Positions 1,360-8,218 of a stretch of DNA of 64,000 nucleotides are shown here, piece by piece (within the stretch, counting starts at the first letter, position 1; each line of letters opens with the position of its first letter). This stretch comes from Acidobacteriota bacterium (GTDB taxonomy: Bacteria > Acidobacteriota > Thermoanaerobaculia > Multivoradales > Multivoraceae), in the NCBI GenBank assembly GCA_029263415.1, contig JAJCXN010000054.1:1-64000 (forward strand), written 5' to 3'. Made by a program: the position numbers and the translations under genes. A model generated the notes under the pieces. That model searched no databases. It was not told where the DNA came from and worked only from the letters and a program-made list of their open reading frames with translations.

Positions 1360-1695
1360 CTAGCCCAACACGTCTTCATAGGCTTCTTCGTTGAAGCCCA
1401 CAAGGATCTTCTTGCCCTTGCGAATCAGTGGCGCGCGAAGGTTCCCGGTGGGACCAAGGAGTGCGTTGACCACTTCGTCTGTTGGCTTGCCGCCAGCAAA
1501 CTGTGTGATCTTCTTGCCCTTCGCAACCGTGATGCTGGTGGCGTTGGTGATCAAGTGTTTGGCTTCGGCTTTGCCTAGCTTCTTGCTGGCGGAGACGGTC
1601 TCTTTGGCTTCAAGGCTGCGTGCGTCCAGGAACTTGGACGCTTTGGTGCAGCTTGTTCAACCGTTGCGGTGGTAGTACCAGTCGACTTTGCTCAT
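1360..1695 (-). CDS. ArsC-family selenoprotein (in-frame UGA = Sec)
   Basis: Reading from the ATG at 1695 gives MSKVDWYYHRNG, then UGA at 1659-1657, then TSCTKASKFLDA and on to LIRKGKKILVGFNEEAYEDVLG, 111 residues with the UGA read as selenocysteine. The UGA falls exactly where ArsC/Spx-family thioredoxin-fold proteins carry the first Cys of their CxxC or redox motif, giving U13-x-x-C16. The downstream RAPLIRKGKK...GF motif is typical of the family. A hairpin with bacterial SECIS geometry follows the UGA. A Shine-Dalgarno AAGGA lies about nine bases before the ATG. An ordinary gene caller would report only the last 64 residues. An 'ArsC family (seleno)protein' is an established annotation. 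The substrate is unknown: a thiol/selenol oxidoreductase role is likely, arsenate less certain. No sel genes are in the window. Confidence 0.88.
1622..1641 (-). promoter_or_regulatory. SECIS-like element for UGA recoding
   Basis: On the coding (minus) strand GCGTCCA and TGGACGC form a perfect 7-bp stem around the 6-base loop AGTTCC. The stem starts 15 nt and the loop 22 nt after the UGA, inside the 16-37 nt window known for bacterial SECIS elements. A G sits in the first two loop positions, as expected for SelB recognition. Confidence 0.8.
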
Positions 1696-1795
1696 CTTGG
1701 ATTCCTTGCGTTGGTTGTGGTCAGGGCTCTGCTGCTCAGGAGCGTCAGTTGCCTTAGGGCTGACGATCGTTTCGTACTCTAGCGCCGGATGAGCC

Positions 1796-4090
1796 CTAGC
1801 CGGACCAGGGTGCTCGTTCGGGCGTCAGAGCTTGGTACTGATCGAGGCGACGCTTGGCTGACTCCGCGGATGTGCCCTGTTCACTCAGCTGCTCGATCAC
1901 CTTCTGCTGCCACTCCACGGCCTTCGCGAACTCACCCGATTCGGCGAGGGCCATCGCGACGGTTTCGCCGTGTTCGGGTGTTGGCAGGGCATCGAACAGC
2001 CGCATCGCGAGGTCCAGACCGATCTGGGCATCGCGCACCGCGTCGTCGCGCGATGCAACCAGGATCTGAGTCAACAGGTGCGCCAGAACGGGTTCGCTGG
2101 GGAGGACTTCGAGCGCCTGTTCGAGCGCTTGGCGAGCGTCGCCGTCCCTGCCTGCCAGGGCCAGAGCCATCGCATGGGAGAACCGAACCGCTGAGTTCTC
2201 CGGATCTTGCTGGATCAGCTCCTGGTACTCAGAGGCTGCGTCGCCGAAGCGCTCGAGCCGTCCGAACAGAGTGGCAAGGTTGAATCTTGCCTCGGCGAGT
2301 TCCGGGTCAAGTTCGAGTGCGCGTTGGTAGAGCATTACAGCTTCATTGTCGAGCGGGCTGGCAGTTGCTTCTGCGGTACTCGGTGAGTCCGATCTGGACT
2401 TGATGGCTGAAGCCTGAGCCGATCGTTGAGCCATTTCGTTGGCCAAATAGAGCGCCGCTCGGGCAGCGATCTTCGGTTCGATGTCTGGCGTGACCAGGAG
2501 AGAGCTCAGGCGCTGCCTGCCCGGGGCCGAGTCACCGAGTCTTAGTTGAAGCAGGCCCACTCCCAGCTCAAAGTCATCCCCCCACGATTCGCCGGCGGCT
2601 TGAATTCCACTGAGGAATTGGCTCAACGAGGCGCGTCCTTGAGCACCCCAGCTCTCGACCGGGGCGCCTGGAATTTTGGCTTGAACTGCGATGCGTTCGG
2701 CGATCGTCTCGGCTCTGTGGTAGTGCAGCTCGATCGCATCAGGATCGCGCGCGATGCCGGCAGCGTAGGTGGCGTCCGCACCGTCAAAACGGCCGGCCCG
2801 CCTTTGGGTGCTCGCCAACAACGCGCGACCCTCTGTGAAGTCCGGAGCCAGCGCTAACACTTCTTCGAGGTGCTCCAGAGCGCTAGCGATTCGCGCTGCT
2901 CGGTGCTCCTTGGTGGTGGCAGTTGTTGCGTCGACCAGAAGCTGTGCCACGAAGTAGCGCAGGCCGACGTCGTCGGGTGTCAGTACCACGGCCTGCTGAA
3001 GCAGATCGATGGCTAGAGCGGTTTCGCCGCGCCGCAGCTGCAGGCTAGCCAACGACTTGTGTGCCGCGGCACTGTCGGGCTGGATCTCGAGGGCTCGTTG
3101 GAAGCGCTGGAGGGCCGTGTCGATCTCTCCGGTGGCCAGTGAGATTCGACCCAGGGTTAGCATGGCGCCAGCGCCGTCAGCCTTGCTTTGCACCTCGGCC
3201 ACGATCGGATCGGGGAACCGTACGGTGCTATCACCGCGGTTTTCCAGGTGAAACCGCGCCCGCTCGAGCTGACCCAGTTCGCGGTGCGAAAGACCGAGTG
3301 CATAGTGAATCTGATTGGCGGTGGGCTGAGCGGCGAGGGCCGCTGAAAGGTCCTGCACTGCGCGCTTGTGGTCACCCTGCGCAGCGGCAATGCGTCCGAG
3401 ACCGTTGAGGCCGACTGCTTGAAAGTCTGGGAAGCCTTGCAAGTGTTGGTACTGGAGTTGAGCCTCTTCCAAGCGTTCACCTGCTAGGAGCGATCGCCCC
3501 AGGCGCGCTCGGATTGGATTGACCAGGTTGCCGGGCGCACCCGCCGCAGTGGCCAGTTCGAGTGAGGCTGTGTAGCTCTCGATGGCGCGCTCGGTGTCAC
3601 TGTCCACCTCGTAGAGCGTACCCAGCAGGTAGGGCCAGCGAGGTTCCTGCGGTTCATAGGCCGCGGCGTTCGTCAGGGCAGCGCGAGCTGGCGCGGTGAG
3701 GTCGTAGAGCAGATAGAGCTGGCCGAGCTCACCGAAGGCGGTGCCGAGCCGCAGTGCGCCTGTGCCCTCAGTTGGACTTTGCGCGCCCTGGCTGGAGGCT
3801 GCTGCCTCAAGGGCTGTGCGCTGCTCTTCGAGTTGCGTCCGCACGGCAGGCTCCATCGCATCGAGCGATACTTCAGGGATCGGCACGAGGCCGCTCGGTT
3901 GAGCTGTCGCTGGATTGTGCACTGCGAGTCCTGAGAGGAAAAGCAAAAGTGCGATCGCTGAGGGCAGCCTCAACTGTTGAAGGCTGCGGACGGAGACTCT
4001 GGGCTGTACGGGCATAGGAGGAGACTTTCGCTCTTGGTCTGAAAGGGGCTTTGCGGGCTTAAGGGGTAGCAACGGGTTTGACTGCGGCAC
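1796..4090 (-). CDS. Exported TPR-repeat protein
   Basis: A 764-residue protein (GTG start, preceded by AAGGGA) whose hydrophobic segment at about 40-60 (IALLLFLSGLAVHNPATAQ) is a signal peptide. M26 at 4015 is an alternative start. From about residue 110 to the end it is built of tetratricopeptide repeats, with many LG.....A...Y..AL..NP/P-type units, for example AIESYTASLELA, ALQRFQRALEIQPDSAAAHKSLA and AVMLYQRALELDPELAEARFNLA. TPR arrays mediate protein-protein contacts. It overlaps the upstream FG-GAP gene by 32 bases, so the three genes from 8218 to 1796 form one operon. It probably acts in the periplasm with those proteins. Confidence 0.85.
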   Translation of the reverse strand: MPQSNPLLPLKPAKPLSDQERKSPPMPVQPRVSVRSLQQLRLPSAIALLLFLSGLAVHNPATAQPSGLVPIPEVSLDAMEPAVRTQLEEQRTALEAAASSQGAQSPTEGTGALRLGTAFGELGQLYLLYDLTAPARAALTNAAAYEPQEPRWPYLLGTLYEVDSDTERAIESYTASLELATAAGAPGNLVNPIRARLGRSLLAGERLEEAQLQYQHLQGFPDFQAVGLNGLGRIAAAQGDHKRAVQDLSAALAAQPTANQIHYALGLSHRELGQLERARFHLENRGDSTVRFPDPIVAEVQSKADGAGAMLTLGRISLATGEIDTALQRFQRALEIQPDSAAAHKSLASLQLRRGETALAIDLLQQAVVLTPDDVGLRYFVAQLLVDATTATTKEHRAARIASALEHLEEVLALAPDFTEGRALLASTQRRAGRFDGADATYAAGIARDPDAIELHYHRAETIAERIAVQAKIPGAPVESWGAQGRASLSQFLSGIQAAGESWGDDFELGVGLLQLRLGDSAPGRQRLSSLLVTPDIEPKIAARAALYLANEMAQRSAQASAIKSRSDSPSTAEATASPLDNEAVMLYQRALELDPELAEARFNLATLFGRLERFGDAASEYQELIQQDPENSAVRFSHAMALALAGRDGDARQALEQALEVLPSEPVLAHLLTQILVASRDDAVRDAQIGLDLAMRLFDALPTPEHGETVAMALAESGEFAKAVEWQQKVIEQLSEQGTSAESAKRRLDQYQALTPERAPWSG

Positions 4091-5861
4091 CTGTCCCTTG
4101 GACGATTCGGTGGTAGCGAGCGACTGTGTCGGGTCCGATAGGGATCGCGAAGTTCTCTCGCTTACCGTCGGGCCAGGCTACCGCGAACCGGAGGTGTTGA
4201 GCGGTCTGATCGGTGGTGTTGATCCTGCGCAGGATCCGATGATCGACCGCAGAAGCGTAGCCGCCGTCGTTGTGGACTCGCACGATGCGTGGTGGGCGCT
4301 GTTGTTTGGCCGCTCGAACGGCCGGCGGATCTGCGTCGAACATGACGGTTGCGCCCAGTGCAGGTCGGCCGCCGTGCTTGGCGGCCAGTCGTACGTCCAG
4401 TCCGAGCCACGTTCCTGCTGCCTCGCGCTCCCAGTTGTTGACCAAGACTTGGACCGCGCCGCTGTTGTTGGTGATCACCAGATCAGTGTCGCCGTCGTTG
4501 TCGAGATCTCCTGTGAGCACTGAGCGCGAGACACTCGGGATGCCACCGCTGAGAGCGGGAACAGTGGAAGAGGCGTCGACGTAGCGGCCTCCGTCGTTGC
4601 GAAAGAACTGGTTGGGCTCGCCGAGCGGGTATGGATCCTTGTCCCGGTCGTCACCGGGCTGGAGGGTGACGGCGCCATTGGCCACCACTAGATCAAGATC
4701 GCCGTCGCTATCAAGATCTGTGAAGCGGGTGCCAAAGGCGGTCCGCGGCCAGCTTGGCTGCGCAAGGCCAAACCTGGCGCTTTGATCGGAGTAGAACCCG
4801 CTCTCCTCGCGCACATAGAGGGTGTTGCTTTCACGACGAAAGTGAGTGGCGAATAGATCGAGATCGCCATCACCATCAAAGTCGGCGGCGTCGAGCCCCA
4901 TGCTGGCCTCGGCTTCGCCGTCTTTGTTGAGAGCTGTTCCATAAAGAAGCGCCTCGTCCGAGAAGGTCGGGCCATCCTTGGCCAGCGTACTCAGTAGCAT
5001 CTGGTTCGGATTGAGATCGTTCGCGACGTAGTAGTCGACACTACCGTTGGTGTCGAAGTCAGCGCTCAGTACCCCCATGCCAGCTCCAGCCGGAACGGGC
5101 AGGCGAGCGCTCTGGTTGCGGAACGTCCCAGTGGCCTGATTGATGAACAGGCTGTCGGCCTGTGGTTTAAAGGCGCCCGGGCCGCAGTAGTCCTTCTCGC
5201 CGCGAGCGGTGAGGCATTGCTTAGTGGTGACCAACGAGAAGTTGACGTAATTCGCGACGTAGAGATCGAGCCGATGATCCTGGTCGACGTCGGTGAATGA
5301 CGCGGCCACTGAGAAGCTTGGGTCGTCGACACCCGTGTCTTTGGTCGCTTCAACAAACGTACCGTCCCCTTGGTTGAGCCAAAGGGTATTGCGGCCGAAG
5401 TTGAGAACGTAAAGATCGATGTCGCCATCGTTGTCGACGTCAGCTGCACTTGCGCCGATGCCGTAGCCGGTGCTGCTGATTCCTGAAGTTTCGGTGACGT
5501 CGGTGAAGTGCAAGCCGGCGGCTGCTGGTCGGGCGGGTTCGGCTGCGGCCCGGGCGTGGTGGTCATTGCGGAACAGCCGGTCGCGGAGCGGTTGACCTTC
5601 AGGCCACGCGATCAGCGCGTCACTCAGCTGCCGATCGCCACCCAGCAGGTGACCCTGGACGAGGAACAGGTCGAGATCGCCGTCGTTGTCGTAGTCGAGC
5701 AGTGCGCCGCCAGCTCCGACCGTTTCCGCGTAGTAGAGCCGGCCGGTCATGCCGTTGAAGTGCACGAAGTCGACGCCCGAGGTCTTTGTCACATCGACCA
5801 GCGACGGCGCTGCCATGACGGCACCAGCGCTCACCAGCAATCCAAGCGCAAGAAGTCTCAA
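4059..5861 (-). CDS. FG-GAP/VCBS repeat protein, CRTAC1 (ASPIC/UnbV) type
   Basis: The 600-residue product starts with a signal peptide (MRLLALGLLVSAGAVMAAPS). It carries at least seven calcium-binding FG-GAP/VCBS units with DxDxDGDxD cores, such as LLDYDNDGDLDLFLV, AADVDNDGDIDLYVLNFG, DFDGDGDLDLFA and DLDSDGDLDLVVANG. The C-terminus (about 490-590) resembles an ASPIC/UnbV domain: GATVMF..., VHNDGGYASA and the VAWPDGKRE motif. Such proteins form secreted beta-propellers. Their biochemical role in bacteria is generally unknown. The start codon overlaps the stop of the upstream homologue by four bases (ATGA), which indicates translational coupling. Confidence 0.9.
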   Translation of the reverse strand: MRLLALGLLVSAGAVMAAPSLVDVTKTSGVDFVHFNGMTGRLYYAETVGAGGALLDYDNDGDLDLFLVQGHLLGGDRQLSDALIAWPEGQPLRDRLFRNDHHARAAAEPARPAAAGLHFTDVTETSGISSTGYGIGASAADVDNDGDIDLYVLNFGRNTLWLNQGDGTFVEATKDTGVDDPSFSVAASFTDVDQDHRLDLYVANYVNFSLVTTKQCLTARGEKDYCGPGAFKPQADSLFINQATGTFRNQSARLPVPAGAGMGVLSADFDTNGSVDYYVANDLNPNQMLLSTLAKDGPTFSDEALLYGTALNKDGEAEASMGLDAADFDGDGDLDLFATHFRRESNTLYVREESGFYSDQSARFGLAQPSWPRTAFGTRFTDLDSDGDLDLVVANGAVTLQPGDDRDKDPYPLGEPNQFFRNDGGRYVDASSTVPALSGGIPSVSRSVLTGDLDNDGDTDLVITNNSGAVQVLVNNWEREAAGTWLGLDVRLAAKHGGRPALGATVMFDADPPAVRAAKQQRPPRIVRVHNDGGYASAVDHRILRRINTTDQTAQHLRFAVAWPDGKRENFAIPIGPDTVARYHRIVQGTGAAVKPVATP

Positions 5862-8218
5862 GGGACTGAGCCTGGTGCGTCGTGGTCATGATTGGCAGCT
5901 GCATCCGCGGATGGGGAGCGTCTCAGCATGACGTGCGGGGCAGCCAGGATCCGTTGAGCCTGCGCCTGTCCTTGGTGGAGCAGGTAGATTGAATCGAGTT
6001 CGAGATCGGTGAACTTCTGGCTGGGGCCGCCGGGCCAGTCGACTTCGACGCTGAGGTTCCCCGTGGCTTGGCCAAGGCCAACTTCGAGTTGCAAGCTGCT
6101 GGCCCCGAACGAGCCACCCGTTCCGACAGTGCGGTGCAATGTGCGCTGCAACGTGCGCTGATTGACTATGACGCGGACTCGAGCGCCCACAGCGAATCGA
6201 TTGGTGCTGGTGCCACGGAAGCGCAGAGTGACCCATCGATGCTTGCTTTCGTTTTGCTGGCTCAGGTTTTCGAACAATGCGTTGGCCCCAGGATCTCCCG
6301 GATAGAAGCCGCCAAGCTGGTGGAGTAGGTCCTGGTCGCCGTCATTGTCGAGGTCGCCGAAGGCGGTGCCATGACCCTTCTGGATGTGGGCTAGGCCCGA
6401 GTTCATGGTGATGTCTTTGAATCGGTCGCCTTGGTTGAGGTACGCCTGGTTGGGAAACTGGCTGGCGAGGTTCGGCTCGCCTGTGCCCAAGTAGAGATCG
6501 ATCAGACCATCACCGTTGAGATCGCCGAAGTTCGCTCCCATCGGCATGGCGGGGCGCGTTATTCCAACTTCGCTGCTGACCTCGGTGAAGCTCAGCGTGC
6601 CGTTCTCCATTAGTTGGTTGAGATACATCAATGGTTGGCCGCCCGGTGTCGAGGCTCTGCCGATGCGTGAGGTTAGAGGGAAGTAGGACGCCGCGACGCG
6701 GTCGGCTTGCTGTTGGTAGTCGGCGACGAACAAATCGAGGTCGCCGTCGTTGTCGAAGTCGAAGAACCAGGTGGCGAAGCTTTGCACCGTAGGCTCGGTG
6801 ACTTCCAGGGCTTGAGCTTGATCGCTGAACCTAAGCTTGCCGTCGGTCGCGGTCACATTGAGGTAGAGCCGGTTGATGCCAAAGTTCGAGACATAGAGGT
6901 CTTGATCGCCATCGTTGTCGACATCGCCTGCGGCCACCGCTTTGGCGTAGCGCAGGTTTGCGACCCCGGCGTCCTCTGTGACGTCGACGAACTGACGCAG
7001 GTCGGATCCTTGCACTGCATCGTTGCGGAGCAACTGTGAACGATGTGGAGAAGCGGCGGTGGCTTCGTTGCCGACATACAGATCAAGATCGCCGTCATTG
7101 TCGAAGTCCGCGAAGACCGCGGCTTGGGTGGGCTGCGGAGGGGTCGCGAGGCCAACCGCCGCGGTAACGTCAAGAAAAAGCGGTGGCGCAGCGCTCGATG
7201 ATTCCCGGTTTGGGGCACTGGTATTGCGTAGCAACGAGTTGCTGATACGCCCGTGAGACAGGAGCCAGGCGCCGCGCGTAACGAACAGGTCCACGCGGCC
7301 GTCGTTGTCGTAATCAGCGCTCATCAGATTGAGTCCACCCGCGATCTCGCCGAGTCCCCACTGGTCGGTGACGTCCTGAAAGCCGGAACTGCCCCGGTTG
7401 CGAAATGCTGTGAGTCCGCCGCACGGATCCCAAGTGCTGGTCACTAGATCCAAAAGGCCGTCACCATCGAGATCCTCGACCACAGCGCCTCCAGCGAGAT
7501 CGGTGATGTCGACGCCGAGAGCGGGTGCGATGTTGCGCCAGACTCGGGGGTCCGTTGCCCGCGCTTTGGGAGTTAGATCGAGCCGCACTTGGTCAGGCAC
7601 GATCGACGGTTGGTTGGCCAACGACGCTGCAAGGTTAGCCAGCCAGGCCGCCGTCGGGTTACGCGGTTGACGGCGCAGGATGGCGAGGAAGTGTTGGGCG
7701 GCCTCTAGGGTCGCGGTTGGATCTCGGTGGATCGCATCGTTTTGTAATGGCAAGATGCAGGCTGCTGCAGAAGGCGAGTGTGGAGCAGGGTTCGCGCCGC
7801 CACCGGCGTCTAGTTCTCCATTGGTATGGCCAAGGCAGTTGGCGATTTCCCCAAGCCTGAGGTTGGCTAAGCCTGCGAGCCAAGCGGCCTGTACTTGATT
7901 GGCGGCGGACGATTGAGGATTGGCCGGGTCCAGTAGCAGAGCGGTCTTGGCGATGGCGTCTTGGAAGCGACCTTGCTGAAGGTCGATGCGGGCACCGCGC
8001 AGCAGGTCTTCCGGTGCAGCGTCGGTCGGGTTTCCAATGGTGGCCGCTGAACCGAAGTAGGGATTCGAACTGGCGGACAACTCCTCGCAAAGGGCTTGGC
8101 GAGAAGGCGGCTGCGGTGTTCGCGACTGAGCGCCTGCGAGTTGCTGGCCGGTCACAGTCAGCAGGGCGAGGAGCGAAGCAACTAGCGCGGCTCGCAATGG
8201 TGGAATAGCAGGTCTCAT
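5858..8218 (-). CDS. FG-GAP/VCBS repeat protein, CRTAC1 type with helical N-terminal domain
   Basis: First gene of the three-gene operon, 786 residues. It has a signal peptide (about 1-30, ending AGAQSRTPQ) and an alanine-rich helical region (about 40-215, TPR-like: ILRRQPRNPTAAWLANLA). Repeated FG-GAP units follow (VVEDLDGDGLLDLVTS, MSADYDNDGRVDLFVTRG, VFADFDNDGDLDLYVGNE, DVDNDGDQDLYVSNFG). A C-terminal ASPIC/UnbV-like segment contains VDWPGGPSQKFTDL. It is a paralogue of the next gene with an added helical module. Putative function: secreted calcium-stabilised propeller for binding; ligand unknown. Confidence 0.88.
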   Translation of the reverse strand: MRPAIPPLRAALVASLLALLTVTGQQLAGAQSRTPQPPSRQALCEELSASSNPYFGSAATIGNPTDAAPEDLLRGARIDLQQGRFQDAIAKTALLLDPANPQSSAANQVQAAWLAGLANLRLGEIANCLGHTNGELDAGGGANPAPHSPSAAACILPLQNDAIHRDPTATLEAAQHFLAILRRQPRNPTAAWLANLAASLANQPSIVPDQVRLDLTPKARATDPRVWRNIAPALGVDITDLAGGAVVEDLDGDGLLDLVTSTWDPCGGLTAFRNRGSSGFQDVTDQWGLGEIAGGLNLMSADYDNDGRVDLFVTRGAWLLSHGRISNSLLRNTSAPNRESSSAAPPLFLDVTAAVGLATPPQPTQAAVFADFDNDGDLDLYVGNEATAASPHRSQLLRNDAVQGSDLRQFVDVTEDAGVANLRYAKAVAAGDVDNDGDQDLYVSNFGINRLYLNVTATDGKLRFSDQAQALEVTEPTVQSFATWFFDFDNDGDLDLFVADYQQQADRVAASYFPLTSRIGRASTPGGQPLMYLNQLMENGTLSFTEVSSEVGITRPAMPMGANFGDLNGDGLIDLYLGTGEPNLASQFPNQAYLNQGDRFKDITMNSGLAHIQKGHGTAFGDLDNDGDQDLLHQLGGFYPGDPGANALFENLSQQNESKHRWVTLRFRGTSTNRFAVGARVRVIVNQRTLQRTLHRTVGTGGSFGASSLQLEVGLGQATGNLSVEVDWPGGPSQKFTDLELDSIYLLHQGQAQAQRILAAPHVMLRRSPSADAAANHDHDAPGSVP

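Follow-up and report, generated by a model that had tools for sequence, protein, structure and literature searches.

A UGA-interrupted reading frame in an Acidobacteriota genome as a very probable selenoprotein gene of the ArsC/Spx superfamily

The minus strand of the window (the whole stretch of 64,000 nucleotides that was analysed) almost certainly carries, at 1695-1360, a functional selenoprotein gene whose in-frame UGA is read as selenocysteine (Sec) 13. The gene, its Sec codon, the SECIS element, the Sec machinery of the host and the family membership of the product are all supported at the level of sequence. The best explanation of the locus as a whole joins a selenoprotein gene and its decoding through SECIS and SelB to a thioredoxin-fold reductase with a Sec-x-x-Cys centre and its catalytic cycle, and can be given a probability of roughly 0.7. 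The hairpin that directly follows the UGA would recruit SelB carrying Sec-tRNASec, by which the codon at 1659-1657 would be decoded as Sec13. The product would be a small protein of 111 residues from the ArsC/Spx superfamily, with a predicted thioredoxin fold and Sec-x-x-Cys as its redox centre. Most likely, the selenolate of Sec13 would attack an oxidised thiol on a substrate, Cys16 would resolve the adduct to a selenenylsulfide, and glutaredoxin, thioredoxin or a thiol of the cell would recycle the latter. That the protein is a selenol/thiol reductase seems reasonably likely; we infer this activity and a catalytic cycle through Sec13 and Cys16.

The gene and its reading frame

From the ATG at 1695, the minus-strand frame is intact on both sides of a single TGA (Table 1). 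With TGA read as U, position 13 opens the motif U-T-S-C, and the UGA thus stands, as an earlier sequence-only reading of this DNA had proposed, at the first redox residue of U13-x-x-C16. The translation, MSKVDWYYHRNGUTSCTKASKFLDAR...VGFNEEAYEDVLG, is followed by TAG TAG; in full it reads MSKVDWYYHRNGUTSCTKASKFLDARSLEAKETVSASKKLGKAEAKHLITNATSITVAKGKKITQFAGGKPTDEVVNALLGPTGNLRAPLIRKGKKILVGFNEEAYEDVLG. Mechanical ORF calling returned only a 64-residue ORF with a TTG start (1554-1360), which is the fragment that the same reading had expected from standard gene calling. Gene callers that take no account of UGA recoding shorten or miss genes of this kind. No sigma-70-type promoter was found upstream of the gene, a result of little weight for this phylum, and when the whole window was scanned for further frames broken by a UGA that have a Cys close by and a hairpin, no other candidate was convincing by eye. 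Elsewhere in the window, three consecutive long ORFs occupy 1796-8218 on the minus strand; judged by eye from their translations, one contains tetratricopeptide-like repeats and two contain repeated DxDNDGDxDL motifs (FG-GAP/VCBS-like).

Table 1. Features of the putative selenoprotein locus, in coordinates of the window.
Feature	Position	Strand	Remarks
ArsC/Spx-like selenoprotein gene (predicted)	1360..1695	-	ATG 1695-1693, TAG 1362-1360, 111 aa with Sec13
Second TAG stop	1359-1357	-	directly after the TAG at 1362-1360 of the selenoprotein gene
In-frame UGA, read as Sec13, first residue of U-T-S-C	1657..1659	-	TGA in 140/140 loci
TGC codon, Cys16, presumed resolving cysteine of UxxC	1648..1650	-	invariant in protein alignments
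AAGGAA, weak Shine-Dalgarno-like, 6 nt before ATG	1702..1707	-	by eye only
Bacterial SECIS hairpin (from covariation), 7-bp stem GCGTCCA/TGGACGC, loop AGTTCC	1622..1641	-	conserved spacing, covarying wobble pair

Conservation of the UGA codon

A search of 147 relatives gave 65 matches, every one of which has exactly one in-frame TGA. Among named genomes, a single-protein query found no match, and an alignment query against the same contigs found 565 matching stretches. The best 80 of these 565 were retained, and their record titles include Myxococcota, Deltaproteobacteria, Gammaproteobacteria, Acidobacteria, Planctomycetota, Krumholzibacteriota and others. At the codon that aligns with residue 13, 140 of 140 loci, drawn from many independent assemblies, have TGA. 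Their records bear the labels Acidobacteria, Myxococcota, Proteobacteria, Planctomycetota and Krumholzibacteriota; some genes were fetched twice, and the set holds 108 distinct UGA-proximal sequences. A miscalled TGC or TGT, the outcome that would have undone the sequence-only reading, is therefore excluded.

Of 377 genomes from the phylum to which a myxococcotal carrier (L090) belongs, 84 have the family. This set contained a single Cys form, in genome G1231 (DWYYHRRSCETC, stop-free), which has C-E-T-C at the same site. This gene (L193, G1231:C28:295964-297266) is the only Cys member seen, with CxxC replacing UxxC; all other matches that cover the site in the 377-genome set carry TGA; the other rows free of stops are incomplete matches that end short of the Sec site. 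When the Cys gene was compared with the three stem types of the Sec-encoding homologues, 4/7, 4/7 and 2/5 pairs could form and none of the stems was fully paired, although an unrelated hairpin can still fold on its strand. That a Cys homologue has C-E-T-C where the others have Sec is consistent with a redox role of that site. Among 369 genomes in the class of a gammaproteobacterial carrier, the family was found in that carrier alone, and it is therefore sparse in that class.

Nearly all homologues found retain Sec, which was possibly less expected, and such strong retention makes the family well suited to the question of why a return to Cys is so rare in some redox proteins. A tentative view, which we hold to be rather doubtful, is that Sec is essential to the function of this family, which would then be a near-obligate selenoprotein family across several phyla, with its inserted subdomain remodelled into a beta hairpin, and perhaps a new class of selenol switch or reductase with a substrate of its own, distinct from ArsC and Spx. 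Clustering of the neighbourhoods of the 80 loci (the best 80 of 565) gave no conserved partner; the largest cluster comprised 7 loci, and the small syntenic groups are probably close relatives. Because no neighbour is conserved, the substrate cannot be deduced from gene context.

The SECIS hairpin

The hairpin GCGTCCA-AGTTCC-TGGACGC begins exactly 15 nt past the UGA and has a G at the second position of its loop, and the perfect 7-bp stem with loop AGTTCC that had been described at this distance was thus recovered as described. Such stems are rare in the window: only 19 of 8,412 codons (0.23%) in its long minus-strand ORFs precede one, counting every perfect stem of 7 bp whose loop has 4-7 nt and which lies 12-19 nt after the codon. 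In an Rfam search of the window, no family reached its gathering score, which speaks neither for nor against a SECIS.

Three stem types occur among the homologues at about equal distance from the UGA. The type of the window (7 bp, 6-nt loop) is present in 90 distinct sequences, a second register in the same place (GCGCAGG...CTTGCGC, 5-nt loop) in 14, and a third type (GCACC-CGTGA-GGTGC) in 4, which carry no covariation information. As the hairpin region is coding, shuffling was confined to codons of one column that encode an identical amino acid. In the window-type stem, 608 of 630 cells are paired, against 587 +/- 2.6 after shuffling, and 69 stems are complete, against 50.5 +/- 2.6 (n = 90); 0 of 2,000 shuffles reach either value, with kinship ignored in both comparisons. 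The third pair, formed by two wobble positions, accounts for the whole signal: it is paired in 73 sequences against 52 in shuffles, and GC, GT, AT, CG, TG and TA all occur there across homologues. When the 3' arm is displaced by 1-3 nt, the pairing falls from 608 to 149-229 of 630. The second stem type has 8 full stems against 4.4 in shuffles (p = 0.0015, n = 14, kinship ignored). In known bacterial SECIS elements, SelB recognises the bases G and U of the apical loop, and both bases are present in the loops of the homologues' hairpins. Judged by covariation above synonymous shuffles, the hairpin is a bacterial SECIS conserved as RNA, and the sequences show both it and the UGA to be under selection.

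Selenocysteine machinery of the host

The host genome (6.9 Mb, 99% complete) contains a tRNASec with anticodon TCA (71 bits), SelB (329 bits, cut-off 242), SelA (458 bits, cut-off 268) and SelD (249 bits in one frame, cut-off 125), and the search for selA, selB, selC and selD that the sequence-only reading had called for thus ended with all four found. SelA is also present in 138 of 147 relatives and in 5 of 5 distant carriers tested. The SelD gene of the same genome (L179, contig C23, 163515-164576) sits within an open frame of 833 residues, the upstream portion of which resembles, by eye, an FAD/NAD(P)-dependent oxidoreductase; it is probably a fused selenophosphate synthetase.

Family assignment and predicted fold

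The product matches the NCBIfam model NF041106, 'ArsC family (seleno)protein', with 117 bits (cut-off 85) over residues 4-106 and profile positions 1-107 of 107, and the Pfam ArsC model with 27.4 bits (cut-off 24). Relatives of the same phylum that carry the TGA score from below 30 to 135 bits against NF041106. In the AlphaFold2 model (mean pLDDT 94.3), residue 13 directly precedes a helix (14-25), and an inserted subdomain comprises a helix (42-51), a beta hairpin of strands 54-59 and 62-67, and a further helix (73-79). The solved structures nearest to the model are Spx and ArsC-related proteins, with Z scores of 8-9.4 over 85-90 residues; the best PDB match is 3ihq (Z 9.4, 86 residues, 2.7 A), and a Foldseek match to Spx has an E value of 1.9e-4. 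The model thus predicts a thioredoxin fold of the ArsC/Spx superfamily. The earlier assignment to the ArsC family holds only at the level of fold and superfamily. By sequence and fold, the nearest proteins are Spx and ArsC-related, and the name arsenate reductase is best avoided for this product.

Alternative readings of the product

The product could instead be a redox-sensing, Spx-like regulator that binds RNA polymerase, with a U13-C16 selenenylsulfide switch in place of the CxxC disulfide. Spx is among the closest solved relatives both by sequence and by fold, UxxC stands where Spx has CxxC, and a stand-alone gene fits a regulator. However, the Spx models score far under their cut-offs (35.3 bits against 75.05 for TIGR01617, and 26 bits against 123), and the inserted subdomain of the selenoprotein is modelled as a short helix and a beta hairpin. 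In the profile alignment, moreover, the Spx stretch EDGT aligns to a gap, as an insertion relative to the selenoprotein family. By residue count, we take EDGT to hold G52, the Spx residue that contacts the C-terminal domain of the RNA polymerase alpha subunit. An Spx-like regulator is, on this evidence, unlikely.

Several distant Spx/ArsC-like genes of the same phylum (L172-L177, in G084, G392, G406, G285, G352 and G078) have an in-frame TGA at U-T-[ST]-C, and in several of them a hairpin follows the TGA. One of these, L172, scores 92.8 bits against the Spx/MgsR model (cut-off 75) and is a selenocysteine-containing Spx-like protein.

It is very unlikely that the product is an ArsC proper, that is, a selenocysteine arsenate reductase, even though the Pfam ArsC model matches at 27.4 bits and such proteins have been termed 'arsenate reductase-like' (PMC9312934; PMC2398784). 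The arsC model TIGR00014 is absent from the matches at E <= 1, the C-terminal Arg (IGRPPE in L001, GRPPE in PDB 3f0i) gives way to VGFNEE, and the region aligned to the middle Arg of ArsC reads VAKGKK. No neighbour, arsenic-related or other, is conserved among the best 80 of 565 loci, and L001, in the same genome, is a far better fit to ArsC.

L001 is itself a second ArsC-family gene with an in-frame TGA (L001:1474-1818; contig C41, 213515-213859, plus strand), and the occurrence of two ArsC-type genes with in-frame UGA in one genome was a small surprise. Its product reads MELICTRTU-STCRKAV..., the hairpin CAAGGCAGTTGCCTTG follows its TGA, it scores 80.5 bits against TIGR00014 (cut-off 106), and the ArsC-like Arg positions are retained, which makes it a candidate selenocysteine arsenate reductase.

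A sequencing error or nonsense mutation as the origin of the UGA, leaving a pseudogene or a 64-residue fragment, has a negligible probability: standard ORF calling does give the 64-residue ORF alone, but error and decay are refuted because TGA is conserved at the same position in all 140 loci of many independent assemblies, the frame is intact on either side, the SECIS stem covaries synonymously and the Sec machinery of the genome is complete.

Comparison with known systems

The selenoprotein reading places the gene in a family that is not new. ArsC-like selenoproteins have been on record since 2006 (PMC1794560), the selenoproteome of the Global Ocean Sampling includes an 'Arsenate reductase 2' with UxxC (cd03032; PMC2398784), and a review of 2022 has an 'Arsenate reductase-like protein', again with UxxC (COG1393; PMC9312934). 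Given these published UxxC ArsC-like entries and the curated NF041106 model, the locus is an added member of a catalogued family, which is spread over many environmental lineages. NF041106 (ArsC_rel_Se_1) has U or C as the opening residue of the motif, as here, and differs in no defining feature. The two UxxC entries (PMC2398784; PMC9312934) share with the present protein the ArsC/Spx superfamily and Sec at the first redox position; they are likened to it by description, and could belong to this subfamily or to the Spx-like UxxC subfamily of L172-L177.

With ArsC (TIGR00014), the selenoprotein has in common the fold of the superfamily and one Arg near the conserved Pro, whereas the C-terminal catalytic Arg of ArsC is without an equivalent. 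With Spx/MgsR (TIGR01617; PDB 1z3e, 3gfk and 3ihq), it shares a common fold (Z 9.4), a CxxC-type motif, an Arg two or one residues before the conserved Pro, and a C-terminal GF/GY-N-E. It differs from Spx/MgsR in having Sec for Cys, a gap at the G52 segment and a shorter insert, and the remodelling of this insert is itself a small surprise.
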